Of a DNA stretch of 34,140 bases, positions 16,009 to 33,915 are shown piece by piece. Numbering within the stretch: position 1 is the stretch's first letter; every line of letters begins with the position of its first letter. Source of the DNA: Beijerinckiaceae bacterium (GTDB taxonomy: Bacteria > Pseudomonadota > Alphaproteobacteria > Rhizobiales > Beijerinckiaceae); the NCBI GenBank assembly GCA_947472615.1, contig CANJEY010000003.1, positions 1 through 34,140 of the forward strand. Direction: 5' to 3'. The notes under the pieces were generated by a model, which made no database searches, was not told where the DNA came from, and saw only the letters and a program-made list of their open reading frames with translations. The translations under genes were made by a program, and so were the position numbers.

Positions 16009-17046
16009 ATGGGGCGATCGGCAAAGCAAGGATTGATTTTTGGATGTGCGCTCGTTCTGTTGGGCGCAGGCTCGGCGACCGCACAGGAGCCGGGCGCAGA
16101 TCTCATCGCCGCCGCCAAGCGTGAAGGTACGGTAGTCTATTACACCGACCTGATCGTCGATCAGATCGTGCGGCCGCTAACCGACGCGTTCGAGAAGAAA
16201 TACGGCATCAAGGTCGATTACGCGCGTTCCGACAGTCAGGACACGATCCTTAAGCTGCTGGGCGAACACAAGGCCGGCTCCATGCGGGCCGATGTGTTCG
16301 GCCTGACCAGCGGGCTGAAAGCGCTGATCGATGCGGGCGCGGTGCGGAAATTCGACGCCGTGGGCGCCGCCGCCATCCCGGCCGAATTCAAGGACGCCGG
16401 CAAATACTGGGTTTCCAGCAATTTCTACGTGATGACCCCTGCGGTGAACACCAATCTGGTGCCCGAAGCCGATCGTCCGAAGACCTATGAGGATCTTCTC
16501 GCGCCGAGGTGGAACGACAAGATGGTCTGGAAGCCGAATGATACATCGGGCGGCCCCGGCTTCATCGGCAACGTGCTGCGAACGATGGGCGACGACAAGG
16601 GCATGGACTATCTGCGCAAGCTATCCGGCCAGCGCATCCGGTCGTTTCAGGGCAGCGCCCGCGCAGTGCTGGATCAGGTGATCGCGGGCGAATACCCGCT
16701 GGTTTTGCAGATCTTCAATCACCACGCGGCCCTGAGCGCCAAGAAGGGCGCGCCGTCGCAATGGGTGAAGATGGAGCCCGCCATGGTGCAGATGACGCTC
16801 GTCAGCCTGCCGGTCGGCTCGCCGCATCCGAAGGCCGGTGAGCTGTTCCTCGAATTCATGTTGTCGAAGGAAGGGCAGACGTTGTTCCAGAAGGCGGATT
16901 ACTTCCCGACCCGAAGTGACGTGTCGCCGTCGATGCCGGAGCTTGCGCCCTCGACGGGCGGCTTCAAGGCAAATTTCATTTCGCCCGACGACATCGCGCG
17001 CGATTACGAAAAGTGGGCGAAGATCTACAACGAACTGTTTCGCTGA
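16009..17046 (+). CDS. Periplasmic extracellular solute-binding protein, ABC (iron/2-aminoethylphosphonate-like) type
   Basis: A secreted type II periplasmic receptor of 345 residues. A signal peptide is visible (basic GRSAKQ, hydrophobic core LIFGCALVLLGAG, cleavage near ATAQ). The mature protein shows the SBP_bac_6/8-like pattern: AAKREGTVVYYTDL at the start, KYGIKVDYARSDSQD, PKTYEDLLAPRW, and near the end HPKAGELFLEFMLSKEGQTLF. The ATG at 16009 has a good GGGAGGACGG ribosome site; the ORF-track start at 15949 does not. No permease or ATPase gene is adjacent, so its transporter must be encoded elsewhere or is lost. Ligand unknown: iron, polyamine, thiamine and phosphonate receptors share this fold. 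A bidirectional terminator follows. Confidence 0.85.
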   Translation: MGRSAKQGLIFGCALVLLGAGSATAQEPGADLIAAAKREGTVVYYTDLIVDQIVRPLTDAFEKKYGIKVDYARSDSQDTILKLLGEHKAGSMRADVFGLTSGLKALIDAGAVRKFDAVGAAAIPAEFKDAGKYWVSSNFYVMTPAVNTNLVPEADRPKTYEDLLAPRWNDKMVWKPNDTSGGPGFIGNVLRTMGDDKGMDYLRKLSGQRIRSFQGSARAVLDQVIAGEYPLVLQIFNHHAALSAKKGAPSQWVKMEPAMVQMTLVSLPVGSPHPKAGELFLEFMLSKEGQTLFQKADYFPTRSDVSPSMPELAPSTGGFKANFISPDDIARDYEKWAKIYNELFR

Positions 17047-25022: not shown

Positions 25023-25052
25023 AAAAACGCCGGCGCAAGGATTGCGCCGGCG
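25023..25052 (-). terminator. Strong intrinsic terminator of the minus-strand receptor/cytochrome operon
   Basis: CGCCGGCGCAA-3-base loop-TTGCGCCGGCG is a perfect 11-bp stem (25028-25052). On the minus strand it is followed directly by TTTTT. It starts 21 bases after the propeller-protein stop and would end the transcript coming from upstream genes. Confidence 0.9.
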
Positions 25053-25073
25053 TCGTCAGTCCTGGTCGTGACG

Positions 25074-26933
25074 TCAGTTGGCCTGCTTCTTCAAGTTCGC
25101 AACGTCGGCTTCGCTACGGAACGTCATCACCGCGACCTTGCGGGTGCGGTAGTAGGGGATGACGACCTGCATCCCGTCCCGACGCTCAAGCAGCGAGATA
25201 TGACGGCTTTCGGTGCCGCGCGTGGGCAGATCGAACACCGTCCACTTGCCGGTCGTGTCGTCGTAGCGGCCGACCGAATCTGTGCTCCAGAAGTTCGTCC
25301 AGACGCCGTGCTTGCTGTCCACCGTCACCTGATAGGGCTGGAAAGCGGCCGGATCGGGGGTCGGAATGAACTTGTATTCCTTCGTCTTCGTGTCGACGCG
25401 GGCATAATTCCCGCCAAAGCCGTTGCCGACCCACACCACATCGGCGTTGCGGTCGCCGCCCATGCGGCGCGCGCCCTGCGCCCACGGCAGCGGCGTGTTG
25501 AAGTCCGGCGGCGAGAAGGTCTGGTAGAACGCCTTCTCGTCAGCCGTGACCATGTCGTACTGCTTGCGGTCCGGCGGCAGCTTGAACTCCTTCGTGGCGC
25601 CGGTCGCGACGTCGCTGTAGTCGACGAGGTCCTGGTTCATGCCGAGCCAGTAGCCGTTGCCGTCGCGGTCGGCCGCGAGGCCGTAGACCGTCACGGTTCC
25701 GGTCGGGGTCTTGTAGGTGACGGACTTGAACTCGCGGAACTTCTCGGCTTCGGGATCGAAGCGCAGCGCGCCATCCGGCGCGGTGACCCAGATCTGGCCC
25801 TTGGCGTCGGCGTCGAGCGTGCCGGACGTGGCCGACATGGGCTCCGGCGGAACGTAGATCGTGAACTTCTCGGTCTTGGGATCGAGCTTCACGAGGCCCG
25901 GGCGGTTTCCTTTCGGAGCTGCGGGCCGCGAGTTGAACCAGATGAAGCCTTTGTCGTCGCGCGTCATGCCATGCGCCTGCGAGGCGTAGCCGCCCGGTTC
26001 CGGCAGCTTCAGGGCGCGAAACGCGCCGGTCTTGGCGTCGATGCGGCCGACCGTGATCATCTTGCTCGAATCGGAATTGGTGAACCAGATGTTGCCGTCG
26101 TGGTCCGCCTCGATGTCGTGTACCCCGACATGGCCGAAGTATTTCGACGGCGTTCCCTGCGTCCAGTCGCTGCCGTTCGCGGGGCTGTAGATGAACGGCT
26201 GCTTCTCGGTCAGATCGGCCGGAACGTCATATTCCTTGAACACGACGCGAGCGGCCTCGCCTGACGGACGTGCGCGCATCTTGTCGAAATTCATCGACGA
26301 CTGGCCGGGGCCGCGGGCCTTCGCCAGATAGGTCGCCAGCGCTTTTTTCTGCATCTCGATCGTGCCGTTGCGGCGGTCCTCGGTGTAGACGCCACCGAGA
26401 TTGATGCGGCTCATGTGGGTGAGAACCTTGGTCCAGCCATCCTCGTCGAACTTGTGCTGGAGCGGAAAGCTGATCGAATGACAGCCCGTGCAGTTCTTGC
26501 TGACGAGATTCTTCATCCGCGCGTCTTCGGTCGTGGCTTCAGGCAGCGCCGAAACCAGAATGTCTCCCGGAAGCTGGCGGCCGAGATCGCCCGCGAACGG
26601 CTTCAGGGTGAAATTCTGATGCGCGTTGGCGGCGAGGTTCACTTCGCCCTTGGCGATGTCGAATGTCCAAGCCTGCGCCCAGACATTGTATTTGCCGTTC
26701 GCCATCGGCGGAAAAACATATTCGCCCTTTTCGTCGGTGTAGACCGACGTGGTGATGTTCGATCCGTCGAGTTTCGCCGAGACGGTGACGCCGCCCAGCG
26801 CTTCGCCGCTGGCGGATTTGATCACGCCGGCCAGAAGCGCGTCCGCGGAAGCCGTCGCCATTCCGGCGACCGAAAGGCTCGCGGTCATCAGGGCCAGAGC
26901 GCCGACCCGAGTCAACAATGCTGTCTTCAACAT
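25074..26933 (-). CDS. Secreted Ig-like + monoheme cytochrome + Vgb-like beta-propeller protein
   Basis: A 619-residue exported protein with three parts. After a signal peptide (cleavage near TASA, about 30) comes a carboxypeptidase-regulatory-like Ig domain (about 32-112; LLAGVIKSASGEALGGVTVSAK). Next is a short cytochrome-like segment with one heme site, CTGCH at 148-152, with Met174 (LTHMSR) as one possible axial ligand. From about 240 there is a beta-propeller with repeated blade signatures (DGNIWFT, KGFIWFN, KGQIWVT, ADVVWVGN), like the virginiamycin B lyase/SMP-30 families. GGGAGA precedes the ATG. A small cytochrome c is encoded 25 bp upstream and is a likely redox partner. A periplasmic oxidation or lyase role is inferred; the substrate is unknown. 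Confidence 0.82.
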   Translation of the reverse strand: MLKTALLTRVGALALMTASLSVAGMATASADALLAGVIKSASGEALGGVTVSAKLDGSNITTSVYTDEKGEYVFPPMANGKYNVWAQAWTFDIAKGEVNLAANAHQNFTLKPFAGDLGRQLPGDILVSALPEATTEDARMKNLVSKNCTGCHSISFPLQHKFDEDGWTKVLTHMSRINLGGVYTEDRRNGTIEMQKKALATYLAKARGPGQSSMNFDKMRARPSGEAARVVFKEYDVPADLTEKQPFIYSPANGSDWTQGTPSKYFGHVGVHDIEADHDGNIWFTNSDSSKMITVGRIDAKTGAFRALKLPEPGGYASQAHGMTRDDKGFIWFNSRPAAPKGNRPGLVKLDPKTEKFTIYVPPEPMSATSGTLDADAKGQIWVTAPDGALRFDPEAEKFREFKSVTYKTPTGTVTVYGLAADRDGNGYWLGMNQDLVDYSDVATGATKEFKLPPDRKQYDMVTADEKAFYQTFSPPDFNTPLPWAQGARRMGGDRNADVVWVGNGFGGNYARVDTKTKEYKFIPTPDPAAFQPYQVTVDSKHGVWTNFWSTDSVGRYDDTTGKWTVFDLPTRGTESRHISLLERRDGMQVVIPYYRTRKVAVMTFRSEADVANLKKQAN

Positions 26934-26958
26934 GGGAATCTCCCGTTCGAGTCTGCGA

Positions 26959-27303
26959 TTATTTCTTCTCTTCGTGATGCTCGGGCTCGATGGTCTTCAG
27001 ATATTCGGCGACCGCCGTCAGCTCCGCATCGGAATAGGAGTATTGAAACGCCGGCATGGTGGCGGTGCCGGACTTGATGAACGCAACAATGTCGGGAACG
27101 CTGCCGCCCAGCGTTTCCTTGGAAAGCGCCGGCGCCATGTGCGGCGAGTTGATGTTGGGCGCCGTGTGGCATAGTCCGCAGGATGTGTAGAGAATCTGCT
27201 GGCCCTGCTTCTGGACCGCATTGAGCGCCGGACCGGTCTGGGCGACGGCGGCGGAAGCTCCCCATAGCGCAATGACAAATACGAATGCGGGTCTTTTGAG
27301 CAT
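26959..27303 (-). CDS. Small class I cytochrome c, periplasmic
   Basis: A 114-residue protein with a signal peptide (RPAFVFVIALWGASAAVAQ), one covalent heme site CGLCH at 42-46 and the probable axial Met83 in TATMPAFQ, followed by the final helix LTAVAEYLKTIEP. This is a standard single-domain electron carrier. I use the ATG at 27303, with AAGGAT upstream; the ORF-track start at 27360 adds 19 unlikely residues. It lies 25 bp before the heme/propeller gene on the same strand, so the two are likely cotranscribed and may exchange electrons. Confidence 0.9.
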   Translation of the reverse strand: MLKRPAFVFVIALWGASAAVAQTGPALNAVQKQGQQILYTSCGLCHTAPNINSPHMAPALSKETLGGSVPDIVAFIKSGTATMPAFQYSYSDAELTAVAEYLKTIEPEHHEEKK

Positions 27304-27329
27304 GGGCGATCCTTCCCGAATTTTGATTG

Positions 27330-27360
27330 ATGGCGCGAACTCTAGGCGAATTCGCGCCAT
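27330..27360 (-). promoter_or_regulatory. 10-bp inverted repeat between the Bug receptor and cytochrome c genes
   Basis: ATGGCGCGAA and TTCGCGCCAT flank 11 bases, 26 bp upstream of the cytochrome start and 25 bp past the Bug stop. No U-tract follows on the minus strand (CAATCAAAA), so it is better read as an operator or mRNA processing hairpin than as a full terminator. Confidence 0.45.
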
Positions 27361-27385
27361 GTGGGAAGTATCCGGAGCGCGAATG

Positions 27386-28396
27386 CTATTGCCCGGAATT
27401 GTAGACTTTGGCCCGCTCGATCACGTCGGGCGAAACGTCAAACACTGATTCTGTGAGCTTTTGCAGCTTTTCACCGTCGATCCAGTCAGCTTCCAGAACA
27501 AGCCGACGCGCCTCGTCGATTAGTTGCGGATCCGACATGGTTTCTTGGAAAGCCTTCCGATAGGTCGCCACGATACTGGCCGGCGTGTTTGGCGGCAGCA
27601 CGAGCGCATTGCCCACATCGCTGCCGCTGGCGAACAGGGACAGCAATTGTCGCTGACGTTCGTCGCGCGCGAGATCGACGACGGCCGGTATCTTGGGCAG
27701 GTCCGGATGGCGCGATAGCGAGAATTGCACGAGAGGGTGGATCACCCCGTCGCGCACCCAGTCGGGATTGCGCGCCTTGATCTCGGACCACGGGCGCACG
27801 ACTGCATCGACCTCGCGTCGCTCCATGGCGAGCGTCGCCGACGCCGCGCCTTGAAAACCCGGCACGACGCGAAATTTCGTTCCGAGCAGGTCGTTCATGA
27901 TCTTCGGGAAGACGACCGACGAAGACGTCGGCCCGGTGCCGGCGACGATGATCTCCATCTTGAGCGCATCGTCCATGTTCTTGCCGTTCGCGGTCTTCCA
28001 CGAATGCATCAACTGGACGTTGGACGTCATGCGCCCGACCCAGTTGAACTTTCGCACGTCGTAGCGGACACCCGGCGTCGACAGCGCCTGCCCGATGGCG
28101 GCGGTCTGCGAAATCTCGCCGACGACCGAACCATCCCGGGCGGCGACTTCGTAGAGATTGTTCGCCCCGATCAGCCCGCCCGCGCCGGGCATGTTCTGCA
28201 CGATGACGTTCGGCTTGCCGGGCAGATGCGCGCCGAGGAATCGCGCCACCAGACGCCCGTACACGTCGTAAGAGCCGCCCGGCTCGAATGCGATCAGCAC
28301 CGTCACGGATCTGGCCGCGAAGGCCGGCGCATCCTGCGCGTGAAGGTGGGGCGTCGCGGCCAGCAGGCCAATCGCGAAAACTGTCTTGCGGAGCAT
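27386..28396 (-). CDS. Tripartite tricarboxylate transporter (TTT) substrate-binding protein, Bug family (second copy)
   Basis: A periplasmic receptor of 336 residues. It has a signal peptide (LRKTVFAIGLLAATPHLHAQ) and Bug-family features: VTVLIAFEPGGSYDVYGR, KPNVIVQNMPGAGGLIGANNLY, and VLPPNTPASIVATYRKAFQE near the C-terminus. Bug receptors bind small carboxylates or amides and deliver them to TctA/TctB-type permeases, which are not in this window. I use the ATG at 28396, 6-7 bases after GAGG. An alternative ATG at 28417 would overlap the upstream racemase-family stop (ATGA). The ORF-track start at 28744 lies inside that gene and is rejected. Confidence 0.88.
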   Translation of the reverse strand: MLRKTVFAIGLLAATPHLHAQDAPAFAARSVTVLIAFEPGGSYDVYGRLVARFLGAHLPGKPNVIVQNMPGAGGLIGANNLYEVAARDGSVVGEISQTAAIGQALSTPGVRYDVRKFNWVGRMTSNVQLMHSWKTANGKNMDDALKMEIIVAGTGPTSSSVVFPKIMNDLLGTKFRVVPGFQGAASATLAMERREVDAVVRPWSEIKARNPDWVRDGVIHPLVQFSLSRHPDLPKIPAVVDLARDERQRQLLSLFASGSDVGNALVLPPNTPASIVATYRKAFQETMSDPQLIDEARRLVLEADWIDGEKLQKLTESVFDVSPDVIERAKVYNSGQ

Positions 28397-28413
28397 GAAA
28401 ATCCTCGAGCCCA

Positions 28414-29133
28414 TCATTGTGGTTGCGATCCTGATTTCTGCCAGCGCACGCGGCTCTGGCTGACGCCGAGTTGCGCCAGCATGGCGGCCATGCGGATCGG
28501 GGCGCCGATGCCTTCGATGACCGGCACGCCCAATTGTTTGCTGAGCCAGTCCGGTTGCATCTGAACCGGGCATTGGGTGATGCCCTGCGGGATGATCACG
28601 TCGGCGCCGTCTTTCTCGATCAGGTCGCGCGCCGCCATCAGGAACGAGTCGATCATCTGTTGGCGGTTCTGGGCGATATGTTGCAGATAGAATCCGCTCG
28701 CGCGGCGGCCGGCGACGAATTGCTCCATGCCATACGCGATGCACTGCGCGCGCTGGCGTGGAATCGCGGACGGATGGTAGCAGACGATTCCGAAATTCTC
28801 GCCGACCTGCGCGGCGACATGCAGCGCGGCATGCAGGGGACCGATGACCGGAATATCGACCGTCGAACGTCCGCCATCGACGCCGAGGTCGAGCATGCCG
28901 AGTGGCACGACAGCATCATAGCCTTCGCGCTCGGCCTGCCGAAATGACTCGTGGAACAGGCTCGACGCCGCCTGAATTTCCGCCGGGGTCAGGCCGTCGA
29001 ACGGCCGCGCCGCGACAGAGATGATCCCGACATCGACATCCGCCGACGCGTAGGATTTGGCCGCGTCCTCGCGCAGCTTGCGCTGTTCGGGCGGATAATC
29101 GCCGACCACAAAGGCCACGCGCACCTTCTTCAT
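28414..29133 (-). CDS. Asp/Glu/hydantoin racemase-family protein without canonical cysteines
   Basis: A 239-residue cytoplasmic protein with the two-domain fold signature of the Asp/Glu racemase superfamily: KVRVAFVVGDYPPEQR at the start, GYDAVVPLGMLDLGVDGGRS then DIPVIGPLHAALHVAA, and ADVIIPQGITQCP...LGVPVIEGIGAPIRMAAML at the end. Active racemases carry a Cys in each half (ACFxDPG-like and GCTG/GCAG-like). Here the first position reads LGM and the second QGI, with the nearest Cys at 188, a few residues off. So it may be a decarboxylase, isomerase, lyase or binding protein. It sits between two Bug receptor genes (61 and 17 bp gaps), suggesting it works on the imported compound. Confidence 0.78.
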   Translation of the reverse strand: MKKVRVAFVVGDYPPEQRKLREDAAKSYASADVDVGIISVAARPFDGLTPAEIQAASSLFHESFRQAEREGYDAVVPLGMLDLGVDGGRSTVDIPVIGPLHAALHVAAQVGENFGIVCYHPSAIPRQRAQCIAYGMEQFVAGRRASGFYLQHIAQNRQQMIDSFLMAARDLIEKDGADVIIPQGITQCPVQMQPDWLSKQLGVPVIEGIGAPIRMAAMLAQLGVSQSRVRWQKSGSQPQ

Positions 29134-29194
29134 GGATTTCCTCCGGATTTATCGGCCCGAACAAGCATGGTTCGGGCGTATCGCGCAAGCAGCG

Positions 29195-30235
29195 TCATTT
29201 GCCGTCGACGCTGATGGCCGCGCGCATGCGGGCGGTGATGGCTGGCGGTGCTGCGTAAAGCCGCGTCATCAGCGATTTGATCTCCTCGCCGCTGGTGGGC
29301 AGCACTTCGAGTTGCTGCTGCTCCATGTCGGCGAGAAATTGCGGATCGCGCATCAGCTTTCCGAACGCCTCGTGCAGCACGGCGGCGCGATCCGCCGGCA
29401 CGCCGGGCGGCAACATGAAGGGCCGCGACATCACCTTTGGGGCGAGGATGAGGTCCCAGACGAGCCGCGTCTCGTCGTTTGCCGAGAGATCGTAAAGCGA
29501 CGGCAGATTCTGCAGGTCGGGATGCGGCTTGAGGCCGCTCTGCAGCAGCAGCCGGACTGTTCCATCCCTCAGCCAGTCGGGCTTCTTGGTCTTGACATAG
29601 GACCACGAAATGCCGTGGACGCCCTGCACTTCGCCGCGCTCCAGCGCCAGCAGCGAGTCGGGGGTGCCTCGATAGCCGGTGATGAGCTTGATCGGCGCGC
29701 CGAGCAGACGGATCATGGCCTGCGTTTCGACTTCGCCATCGGTGCCGGTTCCAAGGCTCGCGGCGATCAGCGGCGTGGTCAGGATGTCGGCGGCCTTTTG
29801 ATGCGGCGCGGACTTCCACACCATGAAAACGGCTGTCTCGGCCGTGACGCTGCCCAGCCAGTCCATCTTGAACGGATCGTAGCGCGCTGCTTCGTTGCCG
29901 CGCAGAGGTTCGAACGGGATCTGCCGCTGGATCGCCCCGATGGTGAGCCCGTCGCGCGAGGCCGCCGAATAGAGGTAGTTGGCCGCCACGATGCTGGCTG
30001 CGCCCGGCATGTATTTGATCGTGATGCTAGGCTGACCTGGAATGAGACGCCCAAGATGTCGCGACACGGGCCGCGCATAGGCGTCGTATCCGCCGCCCGG
30101 GTCAGAGCCGACGATGATCGAAATGGTCTGGCCCCGGAAGAATTCGGCGGGCTCCTGCGCGCACGCGGTCGACGCACAAGCTACGAAACTGGCGGCGAGC
30201 AACAAGGCTCTCCGCCCGTGAGGGCGCGCAGACAT
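29195..30235 (-). CDS. TTT substrate-binding protein, Bug family (first copy)
   Basis: A periplasmic receptor of 346 residues with a signal peptide (RRALLLAASFVACASTACAQ) and Bug-family features: ISIIVGSDPGGGYDAYAR, QPSITIKYMPGAASIVAANYLY and MLPPGVPADRAAVLHEAFGK. The start at 30235 is supported by a strong GGGAGGAAACC ribosome site; the ORF-track start at 30442 lies inside the upstream hydrolase gene. It follows the hydrolase by 19 bp. It differs clearly from the second Bug in the cluster (for instance SDPGGGYDAYAR against FEPGGSYDVYGR), so the two may bind different ligands. No TctA/TctB permease is nearby. Confidence 0.88.
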   Translation of the reverse strand: MSARPHGRRALLLAASFVACASTACAQEPAEFFRGQTISIIVGSDPGGGYDAYARPVSRHLGRLIPGQPSITIKYMPGAASIVAANYLYSAASRDGLTIGAIQRQIPFEPLRGNEAARYDPFKMDWLGSVTAETAVFMVWKSAPHQKAADILTTPLIAASLGTGTDGEVETQAMIRLLGAPIKLITGYRGTPDSLLALERGEVQGVHGISWSYVKTKKPDWLRDGTVRLLLQSGLKPHPDLQNLPSLYDLSANDETRLVWDLILAPKVMSRPFMLPPGVPADRAAVLHEAFGKLMRDPQFLADMEQQQLEVLPTSGEEIKSLMTRLYAAPPAITARMRAAISVDGK

Positions 30236-30254
30236 GGTTTCCTCCCGTGTTTGT

Positions 30255-31607
30255 TCAGACGACGAAATAACCCTTGGTGATCGCCTCGTGGTAGAGTTCC
30301 GCCGCAGTGGGCACGATGCCGAGCGGCAAGCCCTCTTCGGACTTGTTGTAGGTGTGGACGCCCGCGCCGAACTGCACGAGCCGAACCTTCGGGGCGCGAT
30401 CCATCTTGGCGAACATCGGCAGGATGACCTCGTTGTAAACATCCGGCGTGTGGTCGCGGCTGTCTTTCGCGATGATGAACAGCACGGGCGGCACGGGCCG
30501 CGTTCCCGGCCCTTCGAGCGGATGCGACAGGCCGATGTAGTGATCGACGAGCGCCTGTGTCTCGGCTTCGTTGAGCTTCAACCGGGCCGCCGCAACCTTC
30601 GCGGCCTTGATCTGCGAGTCCATGACCTTGTGGGTGATGATGTATTCGACCTTGAACTGCGGGCGCATCTTGGTCTTGTCCCACCAGTCGAAGATTTCCT
30701 CCATCAGCCAGGGCAAACGCATGAGGGCGGTCGGGCCTTCCTGACCCAGCGCCTCGGGGCCTGCGTAACGCGCGCGATCGCGCCATGTGCGGATGTAGAG
30801 TTCATCGAAGGGATCCTTGCGGCCCTCCTTCTTCTTCGTCACGCGTTCGTAGCCGGCGACCTTGCCGAGACCGCCCGACCATGCATTCGACTCGCTCGCG
30901 ATGTAGCCGAACGACGAATTTTCGATCGCGATGACGCCCGCGACGTTCGGCGCGCGCTGGCTCAGCATGAACACGAACGGCCCGCCGGTCGAGTGGCCGG
31001 TGACGTAGACCGAATATTCGTCTTTGGGGAAATGTCGCGCAAGCGCCTCGACCATCCCCTTCTCGAACGCCACCGGCCATGCCGCCATGCGTTCGTGGAA
31101 CATTGTGCCGGGCTTCGCCTTGGCGAGTGTGCGAATCCCGTAGCGCATGCGCATCTTGTCGTCGCGAATGATGTCATACTGGTCGCGCGTCACATATTCA
31201 CCGCGCTTCCAGATCGGCGTGCGCACCGTGCCGTCGGCCTTGATCGTGTCGCCCGGCCAGTCGCGGCTCGGATCGTCAAGATAATGGCGGCCCGGAAAGC
31301 TCATCGCCACGGCCTTGTGGCCGAACTTGCCGGCGTAGGTCTTCGCCATCGGCTCCATTGACTTGTAGTCGCCGGAGCCGCCATGCAGCAGGAAGATGCC
31401 GATCTTCTTGCCATCCGCGCCGCGCGCGACATTTCCATCGGCCGGCTCGTAGGCCATCGTGCCGATGTCCCATTCGAGGCCCAGCGCCTCGATGCGGAAA
31501 ATGTCTTCCGTCTGTTTCAGCTCGAGACTTGGACGACCCAGAACGGCGTCCGACGATTTCAGAATGTCCTCGCGCGCAACTTTCTCGGGCGGTTCCCAAT
31601 TGCTCAT
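30255..31607 (-). CDS. Alpha/beta hydrolase, cytoplasmic, substrate unknown
   Basis: A 450-residue alpha/beta-hydrolase with no signal peptide. Visible elements are the oxyanion loop HGGSGDY (75-81), the nucleophile elbow GHSTGG (Ser206), a likely acid at D382 (IIAKDSRDHTPD) and the His418 in GAGVHTY. It is longer than simple esterases; the region from about 110 to 170 and the cap around 235-350 (rich in Trp and Arg) are unfamiliar. It may be an esterase, amidase or C-C hydrolase. Its ATG overlaps the stop of the upstream solute-binding protein by 4 bp (ATGA), so it is translationally coupled to a receptor, which suggests it processes that receptor's ligand after uptake. Confidence 0.8.
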   Translation of the reverse strand: MSNWEPPEKVAREDILKSSDAVLGRPSLELKQTEDIFRIEALGLEWDIGTMAYEPADGNVARGADGKKIGIFLLHGGSGDYKSMEPMAKTYAGKFGHKAVAMSFPGRHYLDDPSRDWPGDTIKADGTVRTPIWKRGEYVTRDQYDIIRDDKMRMRYGIRTLAKAKPGTMFHERMAAWPVAFEKGMVEALARHFPKDEYSVYVTGHSTGGPFVFMLSQRAPNVAGVIAIENSSFGYIASESNAWSGGLGKVAGYERVTKKKEGRKDPFDELYIRTWRDRARYAGPEALGQEGPTALMRLPWLMEEIFDWWDKTKMRPQFKVEYIITHKVMDSQIKAAKVAAARLKLNEAETQALVDHYIGLSHPLEGPGTRPVPPVLFIIAKDSRDHTPDVYNEVILPMFAKMDRAPKVRLVQFGAGVHTYNKSEEGLPLGIVPTAAELYHEAITKGYFVV

Positions 31608-32680
31608 TTCTTCGGCTCCATGAATTCGCGCCAGTATCCGATCAGTCGAGCGACGGTTTCCGGCGGGGGATCGGTGAACGCGACCAGCGGTGCGTCCTCG
31701 GGAATGAAAGGATGTTTCAGCGTCACCGGGCCGCGCAATTCTCTGGCGAAGAATTGCTGATTCTCATCCGACAGCAGCCAGTCGACGAACAGCGCCGCCG
31801 TATAGGGGTGCGGCGTGTTCCGGTTAATCACTGCGATGCCCGACAACGACAGAATCGGCGCTGTCAGCACCATTGCGAACGGCGCGCCTTTTTCACGTTG
31901 CGCCTTGAGGCCGGTGAACAGGTAATTGTCCCCCTGCGCCATGTGATCGCCCGCCAGCATCAGCGCCATTCGCTGGTCATGTCCGCGCTGGACGATGGGT
32001 TGGTTCTGCCCCATGCACTTGAGGAATTCTTTCAGCTTCTCCTCGCCCATCATGGCGTTCAGGCCGGACAGAAAGCGCGTTTCGGCCGGGTCGAACGAAA
32101 CCTGGCCTTTCAGAAACGGATTGCACAAATCCATCCAGCCTTTGGGAGCCTTGTCGGGCGGCACGAGATTGGTGTTGTAGGAAATGCCGTGCTCGCTCCA
32201 GAACCATGGAATCCAGCGGTTCTGTTCGTCCTTGAAGCCTTTATAGACGGGCAGGATTGAATCGGTCGCGGGCGACGAATAGCGCGCCAGCATGTTGGCC
32301 TTCAGGGCCGGCTGGAAATCAGACAGTGCGCCTGTGACGACGTCGGTCAGATGCCGTCCCGCCGTCTCCTCGGCATACAACCGTTCGCCCGCATCCTGCG
32401 AGCCGATGTCGTTGGTCGAGTCGAGTTGCACGAACGGATAGCGCTTGGTGAACAGCCGCGCCTGTTCGACATTCTGTCCACGCAGCGTGTTGATGATGAC
32501 GAGCTTGCCCTCGCGTTTCGCGCCTTCGATGACCTTCGCCTCCCGCTCTTTCGGCGGCAGCTTGGCGAGTTCGGCATAGATCGCTTCGACGTTGACGGCA
32601 GGCGTCTGCGCCAGAACGGGAGCGGCGCCCGAACTCAACGCAAGTCCCAGAAATAATCCACGAAGGCGTTTCGGCAACAT
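31604..32680 (-). CDS. Extracellular solute-binding protein, first gene of the minus-strand cluster
   Basis: A secreted type II periplasmic receptor of 358 residues. A signal peptide is present (LRGLFLGLALSSGAAPVLAQ). The mature part has the SBP pattern VIEGAKREGKLVIINTLRGQN, WSEHGISYNTNLVPPDKAPKGWMDL and HPYTAALFVDWLLSDENQQFF. GGAGACGG precedes the ATG. It is the likely promoter-proximal gene of the seven-gene run and overlaps the hydrolase by 4 bp. The ligand is unknown, and no cognate ABC permease or ATPase is encoded in the window. Confidence 0.85.
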   Translation of the reverse strand: MLPKRLRGLFLGLALSSGAAPVLAQTPAVNVEAIYAELAKLPPKEREAKVIEGAKREGKLVIINTLRGQNVEQARLFTKRYPFVQLDSTNDIGSQDAGERLYAEETAGRHLTDVVTGALSDFQPALKANMLARYSSPATDSILPVYKGFKDEQNRWIPWFWSEHGISYNTNLVPPDKAPKGWMDLCNPFLKGQVSFDPAETRFLSGLNAMMGEEKLKEFLKCMGQNQPIVQRGHDQRMALMLAGDHMAQGDNYLFTGLKAQREKGAPFAMVLTAPILSLSGIAVINRNTPHPYTAALFVDWLLSDENQQFFARELRGPVTLKHPFIPEDAPLVAFTDPPPETVARLIGYWREFMEPKK

Positions 32681-32838: not shown

Positions 32839-33915
32839 ATGAGCAGATCCGGACATCCCAGCGCATCGAACAGGGCCGCGCGTCTTGCGGCGTCGGCGCT
32901 TGCATGGGCGGCAGCCCTCGCGCCGGTCGCGTCGAACAGCGCACCCGCGACCGTGGCCGAGATCGCCAGCTATTCCGCCGCAGACCGCCAGCAGGTGCTC
33001 GAGGCCGGCGCGCGCAAGGAAGGCGCGCTGATGATCTACACGACCGGCACACAGATTCAGCCGCTGATCGAACGCTTCCGGCAGATCTATCCCTATCTCG
33101 ACGCCCAGATGCCGCGCGCCACGTCGGAAGACGTCGCCCGCAAGGTGATCGAGGAATATGGCGCGGGCCTGTTTCAGGTCGATGTGTTTGAACTGTCGTC
33201 CTATGGGCTGATCGTGCCGCGCGAGCAGGGCGTTCTGCAGCCGTACGCGACGCCGCAGGCGGCCGAATATCCGGCGTCGGCGATCGAGCCCAATCGCATG
33301 TGGATCAGCGCGCGCGAGAGCTATGTGGGCATCGGCTACAACACCAGCATCATCAAGCCCGAAGACGCACCCAAGACCTATCAGGATCTGCTCGATCCGA
33401 AGTGGAAGGGCCGCATGGCGATCTCCTATTCGATGTCGACCACCGCCAACGTGATCGGCGCGATGGTGCTGACGCATGGCGAGGATTTCGTCCGCAAGCT
33501 CGGCCAGCAAAACAATCGCGTCTATCCGTTGCTCGGCCGCGCGCTCGCCAATCTGACGATCTCGGGCGAAGCGCCGCTGTCGTGGACCACCTATGATTCG
33601 CATGTTCTGGCGAGCCGCGCGCAAGGCGCGCCCATCGCATGGAATGCGCCCGGTCCCGTGCCGGTCACGGATACGTCGCTGGCGCTCGCCAGCAAGGCGC
33701 CGCATCCGTTCGCCGCCATGCTGTTCATCGACTTTGCGCTCTCCCGGGAGGGACAGGAGATGTACCAGAAGCTCGGCTATTCGTCGGCGCGCAACAACAT
33801 GCCGACGACCGGCACCACGAACGTGCGGAAGCTCTATCTCACCAACCGGCCGAATTACGTCGCCGATTACGAGGCGTGGACCGCGCTGACGCAGAGCGTG
33901 TTCATCCGCAAATAA
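32839..33915 (+). CDS. Extracellular solute-binding protein, divergent from the cluster
   Basis: A secreted type II periplasmic receptor of 358 residues, with a signal peptide (NRAARLAASALAWAAALAPVASNSA). Family features are GARKEGALMIYTTGTQIQPLIERF, VGIGYNTSIIKPEDAPKTYQDLLDPKW and HPFAAMLFIDFALSREGQEMYQKLGY. It is about as long as the receptor gene it faces and has the same architecture, but the sequences differ widely. A strong GGAGGAAACC ribosome site precedes the ATG, the same sequence as before the first Bug gene. No permease follows on the plus strand; a convergent gene begins 6 bp after its stop. Ligand unknown. Confidence 0.87.
   Translation: MSRSGHPSASNRAARLAASALAWAAALAPVASNSAPATVAEIASYSAADRQQVLEAGARKEGALMIYTTGTQIQPLIERFRQIYPYLDAQMPRATSEDVARKVIEEYGAGLFQVDVFELSSYGLIVPREQGVLQPYATPQAAEYPASAIEPNRMWISARESYVGIGYNTSIIKPEDAPKTYQDLLDPKWKGRMAISYSMSTTANVIGAMVLTHGEDFVRKLGQQNNRVYPLLGRALANLTISGEAPLSWTTYDSHVLASRAQGAPIAWNAPGPVPVTDTSLALASKAPHPFAAMLFIDFALSREGQEMYQKLGYSSARNNMPTTGTTNVRKLYLTNRPNYVADYEAWTALTQSVFIRK

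Follow-up and report, generated by a model that had tools for sequence, protein, structure and literature searches.

Orphan receptors within catabolic gene clusters are documented in the tph operon, at AMDase loci, in Bordetella and in Rhodoplanes. The tph operon of Comamonas sp. E6 encodes the orphan receptor TphC, while the permease TpiBA is encoded elsewhere (PMC8556258). AMDase gene clusters occur with TTT, TRAP or ABC genes, and some TctC orphans are found beside AMDase genes (PMC4996985). Such receptors can be very numerous. Bordetella pertussis has 76 TTT receptors (PMC5812351), and Rhodoplanes has 434 of them, of which just nine belong to complete TTT operons and 41 have ABC genes linked to them (PMC5994714).

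We analysed a window of 34,140 nucleotides from a draft genome of a Beijerinckiaceae bacterium (4.33 Mb, 500 contigs, 93% complete), in which a run of seven genes encodes three periplasmic receptors, a hydrolase, a racemase-superfamily protein, a c-type cytochrome and a propeller protein. The run is probably made of two modules side by side, A (genes 1 to 5) and B (genes 6 and 7), and we consider this a better description than a single system. Genes 1 to 5 have the appearance of a catabolic cluster with orphan receptors, comparable to tph. The preliminary description of this DNA knew of no named system with such content; no name indeed exists for the exact set, but catabolic clusters with orphan receptors are already a known kind.

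The gene run and its receptors

The seven ORFs are all on the minus strand (25074-32680), and each of them is preceded by a purine-rich Shine-Dalgarno-like stretch. From gene 1 to gene 7, the gaps are of -4, 19, 61, 17, 82 and 25 bp, with the start of gene 5 set at 28396; the alternative start at 28417 would yield a 4-bp overlap with gene 4. An intrinsic-terminator-like hairpin on the minus strand (25054-25026), with 13 pairs including 9 G-C and followed by T's, is located directly 3' of the end of gene 7 (25074). Promoter-like matches in the run are at chance level (two versus 1.9 expected). The spacing permits one transcript ending at one terminator. Analyses of the ORFs and Pfam searches showed that the run encodes no permease. 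The preliminary description was accurate as to the ORFs, their spacing, the strong terminator and the missing permease. As for gene content, the three receptors, drawn from two families, and the heme pair stand, but the alpha/beta-hydrolase of gene 2 is divergent and belongs to no named family, and the racemase label of gene 4 holds at the superfamily level only.

Gene 1 (31604-32680, 358 residues) codes for a periplasmic receptor of the SBP_bac_6 family, with the Fe3+/2-aminoethylphosphonate-type fold (PF13343, E=3e-14; 53.4 bits for a cut-off of 24.6). The solved chains related to it are iron- and PLP-binding ABC receptors. The permease and ATPase of an SBP_bac_6 ABC importer are absent from the run; both are present beside relatives of genes 1 and 2 at three other loci (L077, L006 and L079). 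Genes 3 (29195-30235, 346 residues) and 5 (27386-28396, 336 residues) code for divergent periplasmic receptors of the TctC/Bug family. Both exceed the PF03401 cut-off of 27 bits, the former barely (27.3 bits) and the latter with 45.9 bits. No TctA or TctB gene accompanies them in the run, and the five TctA matches of the genome are elsewhere.

Two further receptors of the SBP_bac_6 type are encoded in the window, both on the plus strand. One is the divergent neighbour of the run, outside it (32839-33915, 358 residues; PF13343, E=1.5e-15). The other is found at 16060-17046 (C3:16315-16950 in the genome search), far from any listed permease.

Searches of the genome contigs yielded 114 matches to PF03401 (TctC) and 113 to PF13343 (SBP_bac_6), some of them fragments. 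These 227 receptor matches represent approximately 5% of the genes. By comparison, there are five matches to PF01970 (TctA), several of which are cut by contig ends, so that the genome has 3 to 5 TctA genes. The double-permease type has 32 matches, again counting fragments. Given the excess of receptors over TctA, a missing permease is the norm for receptor genes of this genome. Six of the 114 PF03401 matches are better than 1e-26, and the others are weaker, as are those of genes 3 and 5. Among 76 sampled Bug genes, nine are in a close same-strand run with a gene for a protein of at least four predicted transmembrane segments, and 23 have such a gene within three genes, the segments being predicted by a simple hydropathy count. 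The draft genome may lack some permease gene through incompleteness, and an operon truncated where contig C251 ends might carry one; its best match to the permease of the relatives' operons has only 37% identity.

In genomes of the same genus, TctC matches range from 10 to at least 56. Our data suggest a lineage-specific expansion of SBP_bac_6 receptors in the source genome; a literature search for such an expansion found no paper. A loose search with gene 1 gave 7 to 30 candidates among the same-genus genomes listed, and 112 in the source genome.

The receptors might alternatively be sensors, ligand-bound Bug and SBP_bac_6 proteins signalling to membrane sensors while the substrates of the enzymes enter by other means. 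The lack of a permease in the run would be in keeping with such a role, as would a published sensory function of one TctC homologue of Bordetella, as cited in PMC5994714. However, no sensor kinase or regulator gene is present within the seven-gene run, and relatives of genes 1 and 2 are found in operons with permease and ATPase genes, which makes a sensory role very improbable.

Gene 2, gene 4 and the loci of their relatives

Gene 2 (30255-31607, 450 residues), whose start is overlapped by gene 1 over 4 bp, codes for a predicted cytoplasmic protein that matched no Pfam or NCBIfam model. Its homologues, a structural model and fold searches indicate an alpha/beta-hydrolase of a rare, undescribed family. 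The HGG and GHSTGG motifs, the latter containing S206, as well as D385 and H418 are kept in an alignment of 15 homologues. In the AlphaFold2 model (pLDDT 79.8), the structural elements succeed one another as in alpha/beta-hydrolases, and S206, D385 and H418 each come behind the strand where they would be expected; the closest solved folds to this model are esterases and lipases. On the basis of the predicted fold, the GxSxG nucleophile elbow and the Ser-Asp-His order, the protein is an alpha/beta-hydrolase, with these three residues as its candidate triad.

The hydrolase was found in one of 298 genomes sampled in the order and in five of 298 in the family, all five belonging to the genus of the window. 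The GTDB collection added four loci, one of which (L005) matches contig C22 of genome G549 in content. A search of plasmids yielded no match.

We examined the genes around these relatives, calling them by codon usage except for those of L084, which was read from its ORF list. A locus of Rhizobium sp. P32RR-XVIII (L006) and a locus of G549 (L077) have a gene-1-like receptor, PF01522 enzymes, a permease, an ATPase and two tandem hydrolases, the Pfam assignments having been made on L077 only. In G522 (L079), a permease, an ATPase, the hydrolase and a gene-1-like receptor are encoded together; L077 and L079 are both from the genus of the window. A divergent gene-3-like Bug gene adjoins that of the hydrolase in L003 and L004, and a Bug gene does so directly in L081, L083 and L084. 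In L010, the adjoining genes are of the Dpp-type ABC, as judged by reading the sequence. No adjacent receptor was seen at L080, L082 and L011, the last of which is at a contig edge. Altogether, a receptor is directly adjacent at about six of 13 hydrolase loci, with a binomial P of ~1e-3 relative to random gene order, a rough value because some of these loci are related and a total of 4200 genes was assumed. Relatives of gene 2 are thus recurrently linked to receptor or ABC-importer genes, which adjoin them at the majority of the loci identified.

Four of these loci (L006, L077, L079 and L011) have PF01522 enzymes and an SDR around the hydrolase, and some of them add a DUF1993-like protein and a CaiB-like CoA-transferase, both recognized by eye. 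This recurring set looks like a pathway for one compound. The nearest protein to the PF01522 partners is the allantoinase PuuE, with a remote resemblance only, since they score well under the cut-off for that enzyme.

Gene 4 (28414-29133, 239 residues) codes for a protein of the Asp/Glu/hydantoin-racemase superfamily (PF01177, E=3e-19). It shares that superfamily, by sequence, with the hydantoin and allantoin racemases of known structure (PDB 3qvk and 5lfd), but in the alignment with these enzymes, it has Gly at both positions of the catalytic cysteines. Its full-length close paralogues are likewise devoid of Cys at both positions. We therefore rejected a cysteine-dependent Asp/Glu/hydantoin racemase activity for this protein. 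At a stringent cut-off, the gene 4 subfamily was found only in the source genome among 199 family members, and no gene-4-like protein is encoded in the other hydrolase loci or in the propeller loci examined. Within the source genome, gene-4-like genes adjoin Bug genes at three of nine places.

These data bear on whether genes 1 to 5 belong together at all. With 227 receptor matches in 4.3 Mb, any run might pick up some receptor genes by chance, and genes 1 to 5 would then have no common pathway. In line with this, we found the exact seven-gene combination in no other locus examined, and no hydrolase gene near six paralogues of gene 1 in the source genome. Nevertheless, a chance neighbourhood appears improbable in view of the 4-bp overlap between genes 1 and 2, the repeated occurrence, in various genomes, of hydrolase genes with those of receptors or importers, and the Bug genes flanked by relatives of gene 4. 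A more general caution applies: in a genome with approximately 5% of receptor genes, a run of genes is not equivalent to one pathway.

Taken as one module, genes 1 to 5 likely serve to take up and hydrolyse an organic acid, an amide or an ester by way of shared permeases. The ligands of the gene 1, gene 3 and gene 5 receptors would be a single organic acid, ester or amide or several related ones, which the receptors would pass to permeases encoded elsewhere and common to other receptors. In the cytoplasm, the Ser-Asp-His hydrolase would cut an ester or amide bond, and the gene 4 protein may act on the product of the hydrolase or on a relative of it, with a mechanism that dispenses with the usual pair of cysteines.

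The cytochrome-propeller pair and its possible seam with genes 1 to 5

Gene 6 (26959-27303, 114 residues) codes for a small secreted c-type cytochrome (PF13442, E=4e-10), with a CxxCH motif at residue 42. Gene 7 (25074-26933, 619 residues) codes for a secreted protein composed of a CarboxypepD_reg beta-sandwich, a c-heme domain with a CxxCH motif at residue 148, and a seven-bladed propeller; Pfam models for CarboxypepD_reg and Vgb_lyase both match it. The two proteins, each with a single CxxCH motif, form a c-type cytochrome pair, and the motif of gene 7 is kept in its relatives. The model of the gene 7 protein shows the N-terminal beta-sandwich, a helical heme domain and 28 propeller strands making up the seven blades.

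His228 is catalytic in virginiamycin B lyase (Vgb; numbering of the Staphylococcus aureus protein). The position of this residue is occupied by an invariant Tyr (Tyr534) in nine gene 7 relatives, and Glu268 and His270 fall outside the alignment. Vgb lyases (PDB 2z2n and 2qc5) are the closest solved folds to the propeller, which passes the Pfam cut-off and has the Vgb fold. In contrast with Vgb, the gene 7 protein has additional c-heme and CarboxypepD_reg domains, a signal-like N-terminus and a Tyr in place of His228. Streptogramin resistance was rejected as a role for gene 7 because of the replacement of His228, the heme and the signal-like N-terminus.

Relatives of gene 7 (E below 1e-40) are present in 12 of 24 sampled genomes of the same genus. 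In 17 of 18 related loci, the gene directly upstream of that for the propeller protein encodes a gene-6-like cytochrome; the remaining locus is at a contig edge. The surroundings of the pair vary between genomes. In four same-genus genomes (L089, L090, L091 and L092), isochorismatase-like genes and a gene for a divergent molybdopterin hydroxylase subunit are beside it, the families having been assigned in L089. TRAP genes are found in L096, L097 and L100, and receptor genes in L087, L088 and L093. Searching plasmids with the gene 7 propeller gave weak partial matches only (25-27% identity), and a literature search for the cytochrome-propeller architecture found nothing relevant.

The cytochrome-propeller pair is autonomous and not tied to the hydrolase. 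Among the 24 same-genus genomes, the hydrolase is present in five, the propeller in 12 and both in two, for 2.5 expected under independence, and in the second genome with both, the two genes are on different contigs. The gene set is not kept together in relatives. The proposal of a seven-gene unit, for which the preliminary description had named unlinked distribution as the refuting observation, therefore fails, and its sub-modules survive.

The 82 bp separating genes 5 and 6 fold more stably than shuffled sequences, by 4.1 s.d. (z = -4.1). They contain an inverted repeat with 13-nt arms and a 5-nt loop (27330-27360), which is devoid of a T-run and occurs once in 0.64 Mb of source-genome loci. 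This repeat could act as an operator, as a processing signal or as a stabiliser; the hairpin plausibly marks the seam between genes 1 to 5 and genes 6 and 7.

One could still envisage an integrated system produced from one transcript, in which the three receptors would catch a substrate, the cytochrome-propeller pair would oxidise it in the periplasm, and import and hydrolysis would follow. The single strand, the short gaps and the single terminator are compatible with it. In addition, the presence of the pair near receptor genes in several other genomes indicates that the position of genes 6 and 7 here may not be chance. Nonetheless, we regard such a system as rather unlikely, considering that the hydrolase and the propeller co-occur no more than expected and, in the one other genome where both are present, are not linked, that gene 4 has no counterpart at the other hydrolase loci, and that a strong hairpin is present in the 82-bp gap.

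In the two-module reading, the gene 6 and 7 products would form a separate periplasmic c-heme pair, whose propeller protein may bind or transform a small molecule. Electrons would flow from the heme of the gene 7 protein to the gene 6 cytochrome and then to the respiratory chain.

Two probable modules and the known systems

The preliminary description had surmised uptake and hydrolysis of a compound with a shared TctAB or ABC permease. For genes 1 to 5, this idea is in keeping with the hydrolase relatives encoded beside receptors or ABC importers and with the numbers of TctA and double-permease matches relative to those of receptors, but it does not extend to one seven-gene system. It is also conceivable, although we would only tentatively propose it, that the hydrolase represents an undescribed family accompanying SBP_bac_6 ABC, divergent Bug and Dpp-type ABC importers, that the cytochrome-propeller pair constitutes a kind of periplasmic heme enzyme not yet described, and that divergent Bug receptors use permeases other than TctAB. 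The locus offers a handle on how hundreds of orphan receptors share a handful of permeases and on the role of an unannotated hydrolase family. Module A can be tested in the form of the Rhizobium operon, which has a receptor, a permease, an ATPase and two hydrolases.

Among described systems, the tph operon similarly has a TctC-type receptor among catabolic genes without a permease of its own. It comprises genes for a dioxygenase, a dehydrogenase, a regulator and one receptor, whereas the run described here encodes three receptors from two families, the Bug ones being divergent, together with a hydrolase and a racemase-like protein. As in AMDase clusters, an enzyme of the Asp/Glu-racemase superfamily adjoins TctC receptors; in contrast with them, the gene 4 protein lacks a cysteine at both racemase positions, and no gene of the mandelate-racemase type is present. 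Finally, the source genome resembles those of Bordetella and Rhodoplanes with their Bug expansions (PMC5812351, PMC5994714) in its many TctC and few TctA or TctB genes, in tandem copies and in the linkage of some receptors to ABC or TRAP genes. It differs from them in that SBP_bac_6 receptors are comparably numerous and most TctC matches are weak.
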